In this document: in pieces, positions 3,217 through 15,074 of the stretch | How the letters are laid out: each line of letters starts with the position of its first letter | Position numbering within the stretch: the first letter of the stretch is position 1 | From: Aureispira sp. | GTDB lineage: Bacteria; Bacteroidota; Bacteroidia; Chitinophagales; Saprospiraceae | Direction of reading: 5' to 3' | Length of the DNA stretch: 39,053 nt | Assembly: GCA_024222455.1 (NCBI GenBank) | Contig: JAAEPD010000585.1 | Span: 1-39,053, forward strand | Program-made: the position numbers and the translations under genes | The notes under the pieces: generated by a model | The model's database searches: none | What the model was told of the DNA's origin: nothing | The model's input: the letters and a program-made list of their open reading frames with translations, nothing else

Positions 3217-4812
3217 CTAATACTTATCAATAGTCATGACTACAGCTACAGCATCTCTACTGCCCTTAGCAGCAGCTTCAAAACCAATTTGTGAATTTCC
3301 TCTAGTTTTAAATTTAACATTAGAGATCAAACGATCAGAAAGTGCATCCATTACACGATCTTCATAGTTTGACTTGCGACTATTGGTTATTCTACGGCTA
3401 ACTGCATCATAGTCTAATGGTTTTTTGGAGAATACTAAAGTAAAGCGCTCTTGAACATCTGAATCGTCAGCAAAAAAGAATTGATTTTCTGCTTTAGGAA
3501 TATGTCTAGGGCCTACAATCCCACAATAAGGAGATGTTTTAGCATCGTGTGGAAATATTCGAGTGCTAGTTCGGCCATCTGCTTCTAAAGTAAAAGCATA
3601 CATGTAACATTCTGTATTATTAACAGACTCAATCTTGAATTTTTCGCCTTTTCTTAAAGGTTTAATGACATCAAAAACATTTCCACGAGTTCTTTTTACA
3701 GGAATGGGTTGATTAGTATTTCCTTCATCCCAAGTAATTAGACCAAAGTCAATAGAAAATTTAGAATCAGAAGAAGTTTTAGCTTTAGGGTGCGGATAAA
3801 GTCCATAAGCTTCTCTACAAAACGTCTGAAAATCTCTATAATTGACCCAAGTAACTCCATCGTTACCCCAATCACGTCCCCAACTATTCATTATTTGGAA
3901 AGAACCGCCATTTTTATTTTCGTCATAACCAATTAGACACATGGCATGACCACCATAGTTCCGAACATTGTTTGCTTCATGGCTATCAGGTTTCCAACGA
4001 TCTCCATTTACATAATTGAAAGAAGGTGGAACCTTAACAGCAATAACTACAGGAGCACCTTGTGCTATATTTTGTTTGATTGCCTCTATGTCTACATCAT
4101 AATTCCCTCCAGTCATTGTTAGGCGATTGTAACCTCTAATACGGAAGTTTCGAGCTTCGCTTAATTGGCTAGAACTGGGTTGAGCATTACAGCTGTTTTG
4201 ATTGTAAGGAAATTTAGAAAAAGCCAGAAGTCCATCTCTTTTCATTTTTTCGAGTGCTTCACTAGTGTAAGAACCATTACAGCCTCTTAGTGCAATTTGG
4301 TTGTACAGAAAAGAAGGGCTAAATGCAATATCGTCAGGATTTCGGCCTGTAGTATGAGCTTCTAAGATAGTACGAGCAGCATAAGCACTTGCCCAACCTA
4401 CACAAGAACCTTGTTGCCCTTGATTTCTACGACTAGGAGCGTACTTAAGCAAAGATGCTCTTGATGGGATATTGTAGTGACTACTGCTAGCTGCTAAGGC
4501 CTCAAAAGCTTCAGTATCATCGTATTTTTCTGGATCTATGCTACAACCCATCGAATAAATACTCTCACTGTCTGTAGTAGTATCATCCCCCAGTATTTGC
4601 TGTTGAAGTTCTTCTGGAGCAAATATGAAAAAAGCAACGGCCCCAACAAGTAATAAAGGAATAGCTATCTTAGGTTTTTTAAATACAAAAAGCAAGATAG
4701 CTAAGAGTATGGCTGCTCCTGCACGGTTGTCGTTATTGTTTCCGGAGTTCCTTCCACCACCTCCTCCTCCAGAGTTTGTATTTCTATTATCTTCTCCAAA
4801 TCTTATTGCCAT
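3217..4812 (-). CDS. Membrane-anchored papain-like (C1) cysteine peptidase with C-terminal DUF4384-like domain
   Basis: A 531-residue protein. The N-terminus is a soluble Gly/Asn-rich segment (1-30) followed by two close hydrophobic stretches (about 32-45 and 49-65), so the peptidase is tethered to a membrane. The peptidase domain (about 115-345) has all papain-family residues in order: the oxyanion Gln and nucleophile in QQGSCVGWA (Gln134, Cys137), the general base in NYGGHAMCLIGYD (His289) and the orienting Asn in MNSWGRDWGNDG (Asn309). The C-terminal part (about 385-531) has KGEKFKIESVNNTECYMYAF, the pattern of DUF4384, a beta domain often fused to bacterial peptidases and kinases. The substrate is unknown. 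The gene diverges from glyA over a shared 285-base region that holds a palindrome, and it ends at the two-way terminator near 3150. Confidence 0.9.
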   Translation of the reverse strand: MAIRFGEDNRNTNSGGGGGGRNSGNNNDNRAGAAILLAILLFVFKKPKIAIPLLLVGAVAFFIFAPEELQQQILGDDTTTDSESIYSMGCSIDPEKYDDTEAFEALAASSSHYNIPSRASLLKYAPSRRNQGQQGSCVGWASAYAARTILEAHTTGRNPDDIAFSPSFLYNQIALRGCNGSYTSEALEKMKRDGLLAFSKFPYNQNSCNAQPSSSQLSEARNFRIRGYNRLTMTGGNYDVDIEAIKQNIAQGAPVVIAVKVPPSFNYVNGDRWKPDSHEANNVRNYGGHAMCLIGYDENKNGGSFQIMNSWGRDWGNDGVTWVNYRDFQTFCREAYGLYPHPKAKTSSDSKFSIDFGLITWDEGNTNQPIPVKRTRGNVFDVIKPLRKGEKFKIESVNNTECYMYAFTLEADGRTSTRIFPHDAKTSPYCGIVGPRHIPKAENQFFFADDSDVQERFTLVFSKKPLDYDAVSRRITNSRKSNYEDRVMDALSDRLISNVKFKTRGNSQIGFEAAAKGSRDAVAVVMTIDKY

Positions 4813-5037: not shown

Positions 5038-5097
5038 GGCTGAATTATCAGGTATTTCTAATATAATTATTCAACCACAAAAAAAAAATAGTTGGTT

Positions 5098-7584: not shown

Positions 7585-7667
7585 GATTTGTGCTTGTTGA
7601 ATTGTTGAACTGCCTAAAAACTAACATTATACTTGACTATTTTTATTATAACAGCTATCAAAAAAAG

Positions 7668-8759
7668 ATGACGATGAGATTTGCAAAAAAAATGCTATTG
7701 TTCTGCTTCACAATGTGGGGAACAATAACTAGTGCGCAAGATATCCACTTCTCAATGTTTGATATGGCCCCCTTGGAGTTAAACCCTGCCTATACAGGTT
7801 TCTATGAAGGTACATTTCGCATTGGAGGTATATACAGAACACAATGGCAAGGACTTAGCATAAACAGTATGAGTGGTGGAACCGACAAGTTCTCGGGCTA
7901 TCAAACACCTTCTGCATACATTGATGTACCATTTGGCTTCCCTAGCCCAAAGGTTAAAAAAACAGGAGCAAGAATGAAAAACTGGGCTGGTATCGGTATT
8001 TCTTTCTTTGCAGATCAAGTTGGGCAATTGTCTAACCTTGCAGCTAGCTTATCATTGTCTTATCACTTAGGCTTTGGCAAACGAGGCAACACTCGTTTAT
8101 CTTTAGGTGTACAGGGTGGTATTGCACAACAACGTGTAAAAGATCCTACACAATTTAGATTTGAAGACGGAATTATTTTAGGTGGTGGTCTTGGCGGAAC
8201 ATATGTTCAAGTAAGCGATAATATGCTAACAGAAACATCAGCAGCCTACCCAGATTTCTCTGGTGGATTGATGCTTAGCCACAGAAGTTCTAGATTTGGT
8301 TTAGAAGCTGGCTTTAGCCTTAATCACTTTAGCCAACCTAAATACAACTTTTTAGGTCAAGACTTCAAAGAAAGTATGGAATATATAGCTAATCTATTAG
8401 TGGATATAGGATTAACTGATCGTTTCTTCTTACGTCCATTGGTATTCTACAAAAACAAAGCAAATACTCAAGATTTGAACATGCAACTATTATTAGGTTT
8501 GCACTTCAATGATATGAAAGATATTACACTTTTCTTAGGAGGTGGTTATCGCTTATTCGACTCAGCAATTATGCGTGTGGGATTAGATGTTAAAGGATTA
8601 CGCTTTGGATTTGCTTATGATCTCAATGCTACTGGTTTGAGTTCTAAAATTTATTCTAAAGGAAATAGAGGAATGGGCTTCGAAGTTGCCTTATCTTATA
8701 TAGCTAAGATTTACAAAAACCCTGTGGTTAAAGAAATCTTATTCTGTCCTCGTTTCTAA
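7668..8759 (+). CDS. PorP/SprF family outer-membrane protein
   Basis: 363 residues from the ATG at 7668. A signal peptide (about residues 1-23, ending TSAQ) is followed by DIHFSMFDMAPLELNPAYTG, the hallmark opening of the PorP/SprF family, and by a beta-barrel-like sequence with alternating aromatic strands. Members of the family are part of, or partner with, the type IX secretion and gliding machinery, and many genomes carry several paralogues, so secretion of one particular adhesin is as likely as a core role. A longer reading frame from a GTG at 7590 is open, but it would put 26 residues before the signal peptide; ATG 7668 or 7674 is preferred. It is followed after 69 bases by the PorE-like gene on the same strand, which fits a PorP-PorE pair. 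Confidence 0.9.
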   Translation: MTMRFAKKMLLFCFTMWGTITSAQDIHFSMFDMAPLELNPAYTGFYEGTFRIGGIYRTQWQGLSINSMSGGTDKFSGYQTPSAYIDVPFGFPSPKVKKTGARMKNWAGIGISFFADQVGQLSNLAASLSLSYHLGFGKRGNTRLSLGVQGGIAQQRVKDPTQFRFEDGIILGGGLGGTYVQVSDNMLTETSAAYPDFSGGLMLSHRSSRFGLEAGFSLNHFSQPKYNFLGQDFKESMEYIANLLVDIGLTDRFFLRPLVFYKNKANTQDLNMQLLLGLHFNDMKDITLFLGGGYRLFDSAIMRVGLDVKGLRFGFAYDLNATGLSSKIYSKGNRGMGFEVALSYIAKIYKNPVVKEILFCPRF

Positions 8760-8828: not shown

Positions 8829-11168
8829 ATGAAAAAATATTTCATCCTATCCTTAATTTGCCTTTTTGCAACTCAATACATGTGGGCACAGCCTACCACA
8901 AATCGTATTCCCAAAGAAAAAATGATGCAAATCGGGGATGAGCGCTTTGATGCAAAAGACACCTATACAGCACTAGAGTGGTACCAAAAAGCTCATGATG
9001 CTGATCCTAGTGATGTTTTTGCTATTTATAAAGTAGCTAACACACATGATAAACTTAGAGATTATGCTCAAGCTTCAGAGTGGTATGGTAAATTGGTAGA
9101 GGCAGATACCAAAAACGAATATCCTCTAGCTAGATACCGTTATGCAAACGCTCTAAAAATGAATGGTGAGTATGACAAAGCAATTGGTGAGTTCCAAAAG
9201 TTTAATGCAGCTTACACAGGTGATGATGCTGATTATCACAAAACTCGTGCAGGAATCGAAATTGAAGGAGCACAGTTAGCTAAAGAATGGGGCGAAGAGT
9301 TACCAGAAGAATTAGTTATCGAAAACTTAGGAGGTAATGTAAACTCACCTTCTTCTGAAGGTGGTGCTTATCCTATGGGGCGTGAAACTATCATTTACTC
9401 TTCACTAAGATCAGATACACTTATCTTTGTAGAGGAAGGAACAGAAGATGATAGTAAATTTGCTAAAATCTATACAACTAAAAAACCTGATGAAGATGGC
9501 GCAGAATGGGAAGAAGCTCAACCATTCAATGCAGACGCAATCCTTAAGAAAGGTTTTCATGTTGTACAACCTGCTTTTTCTACAGATTTATCTAAATTCT
9601 ATTTTGTAAGAGCACAGTTGTCTGGTAACATGCTAGAAAATAGTCGTATCTACTATGCTCCATACAATGATGGTGAAATAGGAGAGCCTGCTCAACTAGA
9701 TTTTAACTCTAACAAGTATGCTTGTAAAAATCCATCTGTTGCTAAATGGGGAGACAAAGAATATTTATTATTCTCTTCTAATATGCCTGGTGGTGAAGGT
9801 GGATTTGATATCTGGTATGCAGAAATCAATGAAGATGGTACTACTAAGCAACCTCTTAATATGGGATCTACTATCAATACAATAGCAGATGATATTACAC
9901 CTTTCTTTGATGAGCGTGACAATAACTTGCACTTTGCTTCTCAAGGACATCCTGGTATGGGAGGTTTTGATATCTTCCGTATCCAACGTAATCCAGATAC
10001 AGAAGAATGGACACAAGTAGAAAATATGAAAGCTGGTTTCAACTCTCGTGTTGATGACTTTGGTTTTATTATCAATAAGGAAGGAAAAGATGATTGCTAT
10101 GCTTATGTAATCTCTAACCGTCCAGGTACAATGTCACTTGCACACAAAAGTGAAACTTGTTGTGATGATATTTTCTCTGTATTGATGCCTGAGCGTTGTG
10201 ACATCATTTGTAATGTAGATGTTTATGATCAAGATAGCAACGCTCCATTAGATGGTGCTACAGTGCAAGTTATCGATAAAGCTACTGGTGAAGTAGTTGA
10301 TGAGCAAACAAATACAGAAGGTAACAATTATACTTTCCTATTAGAAATGGGTAAAGATTATGAGATTGTTGCTAAAAAAGAAGGTCGTGAAGCTGGTAAA
10401 ACAGAAACAACTACTCAAAAAGAAGAGTTAATAGCTAAAGGTTTTGATATCACTCGTCCTGTTGAGTTTGGTGAGCAAGTTGCACTGAAAGAACTAGGAC
10501 TTATGGTTGAAACTTACAACAAGAAGACAGGACAGCCTCTTTCTGGGGTAACTGTAGTTGTATATGATGCAGCCTCTGGTGATGTAGTAAAAGAATTATC
10601 TGAAGCAGGTGGTAACCGATTTACTTTTGTAATTCCTCGCACTAAAAACTATAAAATAGCAGCTAGAGCAGCTGGTTTTGTAGGTGACAACAAAGATGTT
10701 GCAAAAGCAGATATGGGAACACTTCAAAAATTATATTTGACACCTCCACCATTGTTTGTAAACATCTACTTTAACTTTGATAAACACAATATCCGTCAAG
10801 GTGCTGCAGATACTTTAGATCAAGTATTGGCTACATTGAATGAGTATCCAGAGTTAATCGTAGAAGTTCGTGGACACACTGATGCTAAAGGTAGTAACAC
10901 ATACAATGATAAGTTATCTCAACAACGTTCGGATGCTGCTATCAAATACCTTATTGATAAAGGTGTTGATAAGAGTCGTTTAGTGCCTAAAGGTTTTGGA
11001 GAAGACCAACCAGCAGCACCTAATGCAAGCCCAGAAGGTGTAGATGATCCTAAAGGACGTCAGCTTAACCGTCGTGTAGAGTTCAAAATTTTGGAAGGTA
11101 CTGTAGGAGCAACTGAGTCTTCTGAGCCTGCTAATGTAGCAACTACTGATACAAAAAAAAAACAGTAA
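8829..11168 (+). CDS. PorE-like protein: TPR, PD40 beta-propeller, CRD-like and OmpA domains
   Basis: A 779-residue exported protein with a signal peptide (1-20, ending MWAQ), TPR repeats (about 30-150), a PD40/WD40-like propeller (about 170-450, with FSSNMPGGEGGFDIW and FASQGHPGMGGFDIF), two carboxypeptidase-regulatory-like beta domains (about 455-640) and an OmpA C-terminal peptidoglycan-binding domain (about 645-755, with YFNFDKHNIRQGA, VRGHTDAKGS and LNRRVEF). This is the order known for PorE of the type IX secretion system, which links the PorP-containing outer-membrane complex to peptidoglycan. The upstream gene is PorP/SprF-like. The last codons lie in a run of ten A (11153-11162), and the stop comes four bases later. 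In the -1 frame the reading continues into a DUF1573 domain, so the natural product may be about 902 residues. Confidence 0.9.
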   Translation: MKKYFILSLICLFATQYMWAQPTTNRIPKEKMMQIGDERFDAKDTYTALEWYQKAHDADPSDVFAIYKVANTHDKLRDYAQASEWYGKLVEADTKNEYPLARYRYANALKMNGEYDKAIGEFQKFNAAYTGDDADYHKTRAGIEIEGAQLAKEWGEELPEELVIENLGGNVNSPSSEGGAYPMGRETIIYSSLRSDTLIFVEEGTEDDSKFAKIYTTKKPDEDGAEWEEAQPFNADAILKKGFHVVQPAFSTDLSKFYFVRAQLSGNMLENSRIYYAPYNDGEIGEPAQLDFNSNKYACKNPSVAKWGDKEYLLFSSNMPGGEGGFDIWYAEINEDGTTKQPLNMGSTINTIADDITPFFDERDNNLHFASQGHPGMGGFDIFRIQRNPDTEEWTQVENMKAGFNSRVDDFGFIINKEGKDDCYAYVISNRPGTMSLAHKSETCCDDIFSVLMPERCDIICNVDVYDQDSNAPLDGATVQVIDKATGEVVDEQTNTEGNNYTFLLEMGKDYEIVAKKEGREAGKTETTTQKEELIAKGFDITRPVEFGEQVALKELGLMVETYNKKTGQPLSGVTVVVYDAASGDVVKELSEAGGNRFTFVIPRTKNYKIAARAAGFVGDNKDVAKADMGTLQKLYLTPPPLFVNIYFNFDKHNIRQGAADTLDQVLATLNEYPELIVEVRGHTDAKGSNTYNDKLSQQRSDAAIKYLIDKGVDKSRLVPKGFGEDQPAAPNASPEGVDDPKGRQLNRRVEFKILEGTVGATESSEPANVATTDTKKKQ
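11153..11162 (+). other. A10 homopolymer, possible slippage site
   Basis: Ten consecutive A lie at the end of the PorE-like reading frame. Adding one A in the mRNA, or slipping back by one base in translation, moves the frame past TAA at 11166-11168 and into an open frame that runs to 11536 and encodes a DUF1573 domain. A10 is long enough for known RNA-polymerase slippage. A miscounted homopolymer in the assembly would give the same picture. Confidence 0.6.
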
Positions 11169-11242
11169 CGAATAGTGTAACGGTTAATACCAATACACCT
11201 AAAAAACCGCCTGTTACTGAACTAGCTTTTGAACCTAAAGGT

Positions 11243-11536
11243 GTGATGAAGCTAGGGACTATGAAGTTTGGTGATAAAAAGGATTATACAATCACTTTCA
11301 CGAATACAGGCAAACATGATTTTTCAATATTGCACATACAAGGTGCATGTACTTGTACTCAAGTAACGGATTATCCTAGAGGTGCTGTTAAGCCAGGAGA
11401 AAAAGCAACAATTAAGTTTACTTTTGATTCTGGAATGGCTGAGATCCAAGAAGGGTACAACTCAGGAATAGAAATCTATGGTAATATTAAAGATGATCTC
11501 ATTATTTATGAATTAGAAGCAGATATTACCAAGTAG
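11243..11536 (+). CDS. DUF1573 domain, probably the C-terminus of the PorE-like protein in the -1 frame
   Basis: The stand-alone frame (GTG 11243 or ATG 11246) gives 96-97 residues: KFGDKKDYTITFTNTGKHDF, then GACTCTQVTDYPRGAVKPGE, as in DUF1573, an Ig-like domain common in exported Bacteroidota proteins. Two things speak against a separate gene. There is no signal peptide, although DUF1573 proteins are normally exported. The frame is also open upstream with no other start codon and reads a linker-like stretch rich in Thr, Asn and Pro, then ELAFEPKG, which looks like the first strand of the domain. The open frame goes back through the A10 tract into the PorE-like gene. A one-base shift there would make one exported protein of about 902 residues. 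A strong terminator follows. Confidence 0.75.
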   Translation: MMKLGTMKFGDKKDYTITFTNTGKHDFSILHIQGACTCTQVTDYPRGAVKPGEKATIKFTFDSGMAEIQEGYNSGIEIYGNIKDDLIIYELEADITK

Positions 11537-13337: not shown

Positions 13338-14126
13338 TTATTCTCCTCCTTTTTTGTATCTAGCAAACTCTAATTCTACAGCAGTATTACCTAGGATTAG
13401 TTGATCTCCTTTGACCTTGAAATCTAATGTTCCAGAAAGATAAGCTGCTAATTGTTTGGCAAGGTCACTGTCGCAACAAGCACGCGTGCAGCCCATACTT
13501 TTAGCAAACTCTAATTGATCTCCCTTGTTTTTGATATAGCTTGTATTACACTCATTTACATCCAATTTGATAATAATATTCTCTTTAGAGAAACTAAGAA
13601 TGTAAGGTTTTTTGAATAGATGATCAGCTCCTTCTTCTTTAGGTTGCATCCGAACTGCTCTCCAACTTGTACCAGAAAGGTCAGATGCATTATGTCGCTT
13701 AAGCTGAATTATTTTTTTGTCTTTAGTCCAAGTCATAAGTTCCCCATCAAGGGTGTATGTCCATGTATCACCAATGATTTGGCTAATGCGTTGAGCTGCT
13801 TTGTCATCACAACATTTTTCAGTGCAAAAGATGTTTTTTGTCACCTCTATTTGATGTTTAGGAAGAATGGTATATCCACCTCCACAATTATTGACATCTA
13901 AGCTTAGGCTAAGTTTATTCTCTTCTAAATTGAGAGGGTAAGCTTTTTTGAGTTGATACTCCTTTTCTCCATCATTAATTTGGGTAACCATCCATTGCCC
14001 ATCTATTTTTTCGAGGACCTGCAGAGGTTTTGGTGTTTTGTTATCAGTAGGTGTTTTGCTGCTGTTGGTACAGCTCCCCAATCCTATTACTAGTAAACTC
14101 CAAAAGGTCAAATAGTGTAGCTTCAT
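13338..14126 (-). CDS. Two-domain META-like lipoprotein, paralogue C
   Basis: 262 residues with a lipoprotein signal ending GLGSC (Cys19). Two similar domains of about 110 residues follow (about 40-147 and 150-257), each with an opening like GQWMVTQI or GTSWRAVRM, an asparagine-cysteine motif (NNCGGGYTI, NECNTSYI), a cysteine cluster (FCTEKCCDD, GCTRACCDSD) and a closing pair like LDGELMTWT or VKGDQLILGN. This resembles the META/HslJ-like lipocalin-type fold, but the paired cysteines are not usual there. It is the last intact copy of three tandem paralogues; a decayed copy lies right after it, and a relic of a kinase 3' end lies in front. The function is unknown. Confidence 0.85.
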   Translation of the reverse strand: MKLHYLTFWSLLVIGLGSCTNSSKTPTDNKTPKPLQVLEKIDGQWMVTQINDGEKEYQLKKAYPLNLEENKLSLSLDVNNCGGGYTILPKHQIEVTKNIFCTEKCCDDKAAQRISQIIGDTWTYTLDGELMTWTKDKKIIQLKRHNASDLSGTSWRAVRMQPKEEGADHLFKKPYILSFSKENIIIKLDVNECNTSYIKNKGDQLEFAKSMGCTRACCDSDLAKQLAAYLSGTLDFKVKGDQLILGNTAVELEFARYKKGGE

Positions 14127-14166
14127 GATCTATAGATATAATTAAATTAATAAGAACAAATCTAAT

Positions 14167-14208
14167 AGATTCTAGACTAAAAGGTGAATTATTGCGAGGA
14201 TAGTTGTG
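14167..14208 (-). pseudogene. Relic of a histidine kinase 3' end
   Basis: Positions 14167-14207 match 15962-16002, the end of the GAF histidine kinase gene, at 34 of 41 bases. On the minus strand the relic still reads TTILAIIHLLV-stop (stop at 14172-14174), beside TTIQIIIPLLD-stop in the kinase. It sits immediately upstream of lipoprotein copy C, just as the real kinase end sits upstream of copy A, so the duplicated unit was kinase tail plus lipoprotein. Confidence 0.7.
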
Positions 14209-14222
14209 CTTTGATAGGCTAT

Positions 14223-15074
14223 TTATTCAGTGTCTCTAGCAAACTCTAATTCCACATTGGCATTACTCAAAATTAGCTGATCACCATCTACTTTGAACTC
14301 TAATCTTTCTGTTGTAAAATAATATCTAAGTGTATAAGGTTTAGTTCTTGGGCAACAGCTTCTACTGTAAGCTTCAAATTCATCATTGAAAGATAATTGA
14401 GTCTCTTTTTGTATAAAATGATTGAAACATCCATGTTTACCTAATTGTAGCCTAATAACATTTTGATTAAGGAAATGGAGGTGGAAATTATCCTCCTCCT
14501 CAAAAATATAGTCTGTACTATCTCGCTCAGACATGCGAATTGCACGCCATTTTGTTTGAGATAGTTGAGGATCTGCATGCCTTGTAAAGCTGATTTTTTT
14601 AGTGCTATTTTTTATAGTCCAAGTCATATGATTACCTACGATAGAGCAATCCCACTTATTGGGAAGTAAGGCGGAGTAGTTTTTTATTTCAGTAGAGTCA
14701 CAGCATTCTTTTGTACATAATATACCTTTTTCTATATTGATCTGGTTATCTATGATAGTGTATGAACCCTTGCAAGTATTGTTATCTAGTTGCAAACTAA
14801 TATTGCCAGTATTCATGTCAAATACATCAAATTCCCCAAAATCGTAATCGTTGTCTCCAAATCCATTGTTTAGCCCCAGATTTATGCCAGTTATTAGCCA
14901 TTTACCTTCTAATATTGCAGCTGTTATTTTTTGGACAGGTACCTCTTTTTCTGTTGAATCTATAGCAGGTTCTACCAACTCAACCTTGTCTGTAGGCGTT
15001 ATAGGTTTAGTTTGGTGACAGGCCGCTAAACTAATTGAGAGAATGGTTAAATAGACTATGTATTGTATATTCAT
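14223..15074 (-). CDS. Two-domain META-like lipoprotein, paralogue B
   Basis: 283 residues with a lipoprotein signal ending SLAAC (Cys19) and a longer linker (to about residue 50) than its paralogues. The first domain has GKWLITGINLG, NTCKGSYTI and LCTKECCDST; the second has TKWRAIRM, HGCFNHFIQ, SRSCCPRT and VDGDQLILSNANVELEFARD. The 3' ends of the three genes are close to identical in places (for example TCTAGCAAACTCTAATT on the plus strand), which suggests recent duplication or gene conversion. It follows copy A after only 25 bases, so the two are probably co-transcribed. The role is unknown; it is probably an envelope lipoprotein. Confidence 0.85.
   Translation of the reverse strand: MNIQYIVYLTILSISLAACHQTKPITPTDKVELVEPAIDSTEKEVPVQKITAAILEGKWLITGINLGLNNGFGDNDYDFGEFDVFDMNTGNISLQLDNNTCKGSYTIIDNQINIEKGILCTKECCDSTEIKNYSALLPNKWDCSIVGNHMTWTIKNSTKKISFTRHADPQLSQTKWRAIRMSERDSTDYIFEEEDNFHLHFLNQNVIRLQLGKHGCFNHFIQKETQLSFNDEFEAYSRSCCPRTKPYTLRYYFTTERLEFKVDGDQLILSNANVELEFARDTE

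Follow-up and report, generated by a model that had tools for sequence, protein, structure and literature searches.

A probable RNA polymerase slippage site at a conserved A10 run between a PorE/CHU_0125-like anchor and a DUF1573 domain in Aureispira and its relatives

Results

An anchor gene and a DUF1573 frame meet at a run of ten A

The subject of this study is a 39,053-nucleotide contig of Aureispira sp. (GenBank assembly GCA_024222455.1, contig JAAEPD010000585.1, forward strand; this whole stretch is called the window), in which the gene for a PorE/CHU_0125-like anchor (open reading frame 0, ORF0) runs into ten consecutive A residues (A10) and stops just past them, and a second frame, displaced by −1 and open beyond the run (ORF1), encodes a DUF1573 domain (Table 1). 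An earlier note on this DNA had described the same arrangement from the letters alone, and the description is borne out: the anchor frame ends in TDTKKKQ-stop at the run, the −1 frame is open to 11536 with a PF07610 match, and the two together give, by arithmetic, a protein of 778 + 124 = 902 residues. Because the remaining frame is closed by a TAG at 11173, only one of the two possible shifts reaches DUF1573. We consider it likely, from the comparisons described below, that the run is a programmed slippage site, used chiefly by RNA polymerase, that yields a short and a long form of the anchor.

ORF0 contains TPR and CarboxypepD_reg domains and a C-terminal OmpA domain (PF00691, E 3.7e-20, residues 647-737, about 10767-11039), behind an N-terminal leader that was judged by eye. 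The earlier description of ORF0 as "PorE-like" holds in part. Two NCBIfam models, CHU_0125 OmpA (NF053607) and type IX secretion system (T9SS) PorE (NF052230), give significant matches, but at 313.5 and 245.8 bits these lie below the curated cut-offs of 620 and 600, and "PorE" is therefore a loose name for this protein.

Table 1. Features of the anchor locus in the window
Feature	Position	Strand	Remarks
PorP/SprF-family outer-membrane protein, gene upstream of the anchor	7590..8759	+	TIGR03519 152.8 bits (cut-off 90.55); PF11751 E 7.3e-40
ORF0, PorE/CHU_0125-like anchor, short form, 779 residues	8829..11168	+	C-terminus TDTKKKQ
ORF1, −1 frame, Thr/Asn/Pro-rich linker and DUF1573	11150..11536	+	open, 128 codons; without a start that keeps the whole domain
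A10 run, proposed slippage site	11153..11162	+	context ACA AAA AAA AAA CAG TAA, exactly ten A
Stop codon TAA of the short form	11166..11168	+	3 nucleotides past the run
TAG, stop of the remaining frame	11173..11175	+	10 nucleotides past the run
DUF1573 domain, MSP/ASH/PapD-like fold	11216..11533	+	profile match, model and fold comparison

Out-of-frame junctions throughout the family carry long A runs

The junction was surveyed in the window's family (the Saprospira/Aureispira group) in 126 genomes from 112 genera, 124 of which had an anchor match at 1e-50. Junctions were sorted by frame and by the presence of a leader, blind to A runs and with hand corrections; 116 of the 126 genomes were classified, and two of the ten others had no anchor match. 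The commonest state was an in-frame fusion (69 of 116). In 14 genomes DUF1573 was encoded just downstream by a gene of its own that has a leader, 19 had no DUF1573, and in a further 14 it lay in another frame and had no leader. All 14 out-of-frame junctions of this systematic sample contained a run of at least nine A, as did three of the 69 in-frame fusions but none of the 14 separate-gene or 19 DUF1573-free cases (Fisher 2.6e-13, out-of-frame versus in-frame). One locus called out-of-frame by the script (L172, genome G059) was moved by hand to the separate-gene class for its lipobox-type leader; without this move the first count would have been 14 of 15. Hand additions were four g73 genomes that the OmpA pattern had missed (L102, L210-L212) and, as in-frame, L192 (G108), which has no run of at least eight A in the 400 nucleotides before the domain; L107 duplicated L096 and was removed, and L186 and L203 are without an OmpA motif. 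The class without DUF1573, like the other classes, may include paralogues. One locus (L020, G018) has two tandem DUF1573 domains in frame behind OmpA, in an open frame of 1008 residues.

With extra genomes the out-of-frame set comes to 29 junctions, 15 of them from non-systematic searches, in 12 genera (given here as g numbers, g1 being that of the window), and every run is pure A9-A11. Saprospira grandis Lewin (NC_016940.1), S. grandis DSM 2844 and Aureispira sp. CCB-QB1, all of them named strains, are A10 and in the −1 state; they were recovered from the named genomes with alignment A2 as query, where ORF1 of the window as sole query had found no relative. By the match of their junction sequences to the named loci, g22 appears to be Aureispira-like and g73 Saprospira-like. 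Run, offset and near stop occur together in all eight g22 genomes that have the gene (of nine), in five of the six g73 genomes and, as similar sites, in nine more genera, that of the window not counted. Comparison of the tract in close relatives had been proposed in the earlier note as a check, and the conservation of these three properties supports slippage that joins the frames. The note had also counted separate, leader-bearing DUF1573 genes in relatives against this idea; such genes do exist, but in other genera and as an alternative architecture. In the order as a whole, a profile of the PorE-linked DUF1573 at E ≤ 1e-25 matched in 14 of 149 genomes, all from the window's family, at a cut-off so strict that at least five family genomes in the order sample were also without a match.

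Offset and stop are kept while run length varies

The same −1 shift (one extra A) is needed at 27 of the 29 out-of-frame junctions. In 26 of them the anchor-frame stop begins 0-4 nucleotides past the run, and in the remaining three at 8, 10 and 17 nucleotides. In 63 of the 69 in-frame linkers, taken as the null, a stop lies within 6 nucleotides for 13% of positions in one of the other frames and 19% in the second, with median distances of 42 and 30 nucleotides. The frame that leads neither to the anchor stop nor to DUF1573 closes 0-20 nucleotides past the run in all 28 tabulated junctions. The commonest form of the site is A10-N-TA[AG]; G042 has A10-N-TGA. Seven g22 genomes have A10-C-stop and the eighth has A9-G-T-stop, of equal length and the same offset, and g17 has both A11 and A9 runs with an identical offset that is kept through other changes. 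That the offset is maintained at varying run length argues against a miscounted run and against phase variation. The sixth g73 genome has the run with a +1 offset. Between two g73 loci, L209 (G305) and L213 (G329), the former has one base fewer after the A10, putting its DUF1573 in +1; this is either a real change or an error in the assembly of a metagenome-assembled genome.

Sites of the inverse kind were found in G012 and G133 (A10) and G079 (A9), in which the fusion is in frame as it stands: one added A brings a stop at 12, 12 and 0 nucleotides past the run, respectively, and one lost A brings a stop at 5, 5 and 35. Runs of A9-A10 also occur in the DUF1573 frame within the DUF1573 coding part in G113 (L104 reverse, near 3673), G129 (L103 reverse, near 3737) and G108 (L192 reverse, near 688), and are possible further slip sites.

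No AAG is found within any of the 29 runs, even in genes that use AAG more often than AAA for Lys (27 of 39 in the part available from G042, 21 of 31 in G104), and the joint log10 P of an all-AAA outcome is about −6.2 (14 genera with one gene each, treated as independent, two inverse-site genera included). In a large share of bacterial genomes, selection against slippage is evident at a run length of nine A (PMC1088944). Two features by which slippage sites are recognized are present: a run of about nine A or more lies at the frame junction (A10 in the window, A9-A11 in all 29), and the run is conserved among homologues (PMC1088944), here in 12 genera with the same −1 offset in 27 of 29.

No start codon in the window keeps the whole DUF1573 domain

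Residues 31-124 of ORF1 match PF07610 with E 7.1e-17 and 61.7 bits, above the Pfam gathering score of 26.1, and the Cys-x-Cys pair of the domain is invariant in both alignments that were built. The earliest candidate starts are GTG at 11243 (residue 32) and ATG at 11246 (residue 33). AlphaFold2 models ORF1 with a mean predicted local distance difference test score of 86.7 (residues 1-16 under 50) and places the first strand at residues 25-28; this strand precedes both candidates, so that initiation at either would delete it, as the earlier note had argued. An independent DUF1573 gene in the window was accordingly rejected, given that no start keeps the first strand and hence there is no leader. 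The closest structural neighbor of the model is P. gingivalis 2qsv (Z 13.0, 104 residues, 2.3 A), and others near the top include HYDIN, CEP192, VesB/VesC and the major sperm proteins (MSPs), which together indicate a domain of MSP/ASH/PapD-like type.

The part of ORF1 after the run has a median pairwise ratio of nonsynonymous to synonymous substitution (dN/dS) of 0.115 in g22 (20 of 21 pairs usable, seven of eight sequences) and 0.064 in g73 (four of six pairs, four of six sequences), close to the values for the last 200 codons of ORF0 (0.124 and 0.109), although several dS values in these sets exceed 1.5 and are near saturation. By this measure ORF1 is under purifying selection, and a transition between frames would be the simplest route that fits all of the start-codon and selection data.

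Other features of the window and its genome

In the four relatives inspected by eye (L100, L101, L102 and L209), an ORF with a C-terminus like that of the PorP/SprF-family protein of the window lies just upstream of the anchor gene. Further A10 runs of the window's genome lie at a contig edge in a 451-residue ORF (G000:C115:17-26, L281), within a 961-residue ORF (G000:C99:25542-25551, L273 5542-5551), and in the window itself at 5079-5088, directly upstream of a serine hydroxymethyltransferase gene whose start is given as TTG 5092. At 13338-15074 of the window, two adjoining minus-strand genes match the META domain, the first with E 2.2e-14 and the second, which falls short of the gathering score, with E 1.8e-4.

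Discussion

Weighing transcriptional slippage against other explanations

Several observations weigh against slippage by RNA polymerase. An A AAA AAA heptamer lies in phase in every run and fits the X XXY YYZ pattern for −1 ribosomal frameshifting. In addition, RNA folds downstream of the run are in some genomes more stable than shuffles: over 60 nucleotides, z is −3.1 to −3.5 in three of the six g73 genomes (−1.4 to +1.1 in the other three), −2.5 to −6.6 in three g96 genomes and −3.0 in G093, within an overall range of −6.6 to +1.6, and over 100 nucleotides it is −2.0 in the window and −1.7 to −2.1 in five of the eight g22 genomes. Ten sense runs of at least nine A, that of the window included, lie inside ORFs in 426 kb of genome, these being contigs picked because they hold such runs. 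Two genomes, G305 and G129, require the opposite shift (+1). The two g6 species differ, one having A9 (−1) and the other A11 (+1), a pattern expected from drift of a hypermutable tract, and the g6 run may therefore be a tolerated tract. At seven of the 28 tabulated junctions (in g45, g96, g43 and g70) an ATG, GTG or TTG stands in the linker before the profile match, and a leaderless protein could begin there. Furthermore, the tree of the OmpA domain (133 rows, 166 columns), from which the history of the sites was read, is weakly resolved, with 14 of 129 inner branches starred as well supported. Termination followed by reinitiation was set aside on the grounds that six of the 28 junctions have no ATG, GTG or TTG in the stretch that begins at the run and extends 25 residues into the DUF1573 profile match, though seven do have one in the linker.

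The in-phase heptamers, the stable folds of some genomes and the stop directly past the site are all in keeping with programmed −1 frameshifting by the ribosome at A AAA AAA/C inside the run, which would make the same 902-residue product from unedited mRNA. We nonetheless regard this as unlikely. AAG is absent from every run though it is common or dominant in several of these genes, the runs are longer than a heptamer needs to be, and in g1, g22 and g72 the 60-nucleotide folds are no more stable than those of shuffles (z −1.3 to +1.0). Likewise, −1 frameshifting by the ribosome cannot give a +1 shift and leaves the two +1 cases unserved. Taken together, these points favor transcriptional slippage short of proof, the in-phase heptamers being found in every run. 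A related question is whether slipping takes place during DNA replication, the tract being a contingency locus that switches heritably between short and long forms. Poly-A tracts are prone to such slippage (PMC1088944), and the frame does differ between species in g6 and in one genome of g73; but with all eight g22 and five of six g73 genomes in the same −1 state, none of these 14 in frame, compensating substitutions that keep the offset and stops directly past the run, phase variation is very improbable here. Less probable still is a neutral frameshift in a linker run, tolerated through leaky slippage that rescues enough fusion, with a short form that has no role. The in-frame fusion is indeed the commonest state, and some junctions, such as that of g6, may be recent. 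Against this stand the stops, which lie within 4 nucleotides in every genome of ten of the 12 genera (binomial P about 3e-6 under the 19% null with genera independent; about 2e-4 for seven of nine origins, as origins are counted here), and the retention of A9-A11 across g1, g22, g72 and g73 while the linker behind the run turns over. The alternative raised in the earlier note, a miscounted A11 in what is really an in-frame fusion, has in its favor that a homopolymer undercall by one base yields exactly the observed frame. We give it almost no weight: the same frame recurs at different run lengths in 27 of 29 genomes, which come from several projects and include near-complete genomes as well as named strains, and in g22 A9-GT and A10-C lead to the same stop.

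A model for two anchor forms from one gene

We infer from sequence that slippage occurs and that it is mainly transcriptional, and likewise the ratio of the forms and the location and function of the added domain; with this in mind, the following model can be put forward. Transcripts with ten A would give the 779-residue periplasmic anchor, terminating two codons past the run. RNA polymerase would slip on the run in some transcripts, presumably a minority, and add one A or lose two, and a ribosome on such a transcript would read KKK-TVTNS... into the −1 frame and complete the 902-residue form, carrying a C-terminal MSP/ASH-like DUF1573 behind the peptidoglycan-binding OmpA domain. In this way bare anchors and anchors with DUF1573 would be kept at a set ratio in the cell, next to the PorP/SprF partner. 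By analogy with the C-terminal domain of P. gingivalis PorE, which has been solved and holds peptidoglycan (PMC7192894), the OmpA domain should hold the anchor to peptidoglycan, and the added module probably serves contact with a periplasmic partner. Among relatives, DUF1573 is supplied by a plain fusion, a separate gene or a slip site, which suggests that what varies is how much of it there is relative to the anchor.

Origin and turnover of the sites

On the OmpA-domain tree the out-of-frame state needs nine changes, of which the starred branches alone force three; shuffled labels average 25.5. The clade of the window (g1, g22, g72, g73) looks like one old origin, and g17, g45, g43, g96, g70, g105, g94 and g6 may be separate origins, with gain and loss indistinguishable on these data. 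It is conceivable, although we are somewhat doubtful, that an anchor ratio set by slippage is a selected device that evolved repeatedly, with plain fusions having become poly-A toggles, and perhaps toggles plain fusions, on several occasions at one and the same domain border and in both polarities. If so, recoding would act as an evolvable control of dosage for a cell-wall anchor associated with the T9SS. The mixture of fusions, separate genes and slip sites within one family offers a natural experiment on the origin and turnover of recoding sites. In annotation such a gene would probably appear in two pieces, the anchor as intact and DUF1573 as an orphan fragment or a pseudogene. As named strains carry the site, the ratio of the forms and the role of DUF1573 are open to direct testing.

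Comparison with known systems

In the open-access literature we found no report of slippage or frameshifting at this anchor-DUF1573 junction; by word count, the main text of PMC3711429 contains none of the terms OmpA, Saprospira and DUF1573, and "slippage" in one open-access paper on the T9SS refers to slipping of a conveyor belt. The junction may thus be a new and widely conserved case of programmed slippage, in the Bacteroidota and in a PorP-linked cell-wall anchor. The protein itself is related in kind to P. gingivalis PorE (PMC7192894) and Cytophaga CHU_0125 (PMC5891637), sharing with them a C-terminal peptidoglycan-binding, OmpA-type anchor, and the gene for a PorP protein adjoins ORF0; it differs from both in falling under the curated cut-offs and in having the extra DUF1573 in a second frame.

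Where recoding is concerned, dnaX of Thermus thermophilus likewise has an A9 run and makes two lengths of protein through transcriptional slippage, but there it is the long product that is in frame (PMC1088944), as in G012, G133 and G079. Transcriptional slippage also tunes components of the Shigella type III secretion system (spa13, spa33, mxiA and mxiE), and spa13 gains a C-terminal extension by it; these proteins are unrelated to the anchor, and their slippage is experimentally proven (PMC4256274, PMC5009743). The closest precedent appears to be tssM of the type VI secretion system. In tssM1 of Citrobacter rodentium and tssM3 of Yersinia pseudotuberculosis, as here, an A run (A11 in tssM) lies a few bases before a stop in the gene for an envelope component of a secretion system, and slippage adds a C-terminal domain (PMC4256274). 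Slippage in tssM has an efficiency of about 20-25%, and both Citrobacter forms are required (PMC4256274). Both polarities are known for tssM, slipping leading to the long form in Citrobacter and to the short form in Y. pseudotuberculosis, a counterpart to the window-type and inverse sites described here (PMC4256274). The secretion system, phylum and protein are different, and slippage was demonstrated experimentally for tssM whereas at the anchor it is read from sequence (PMC4256274). The two cases also differ in breadth: the authors of that study found only one further case of tssM (PMC4256274), whereas the anchor-DUF1573 junction is common to 12 genera.

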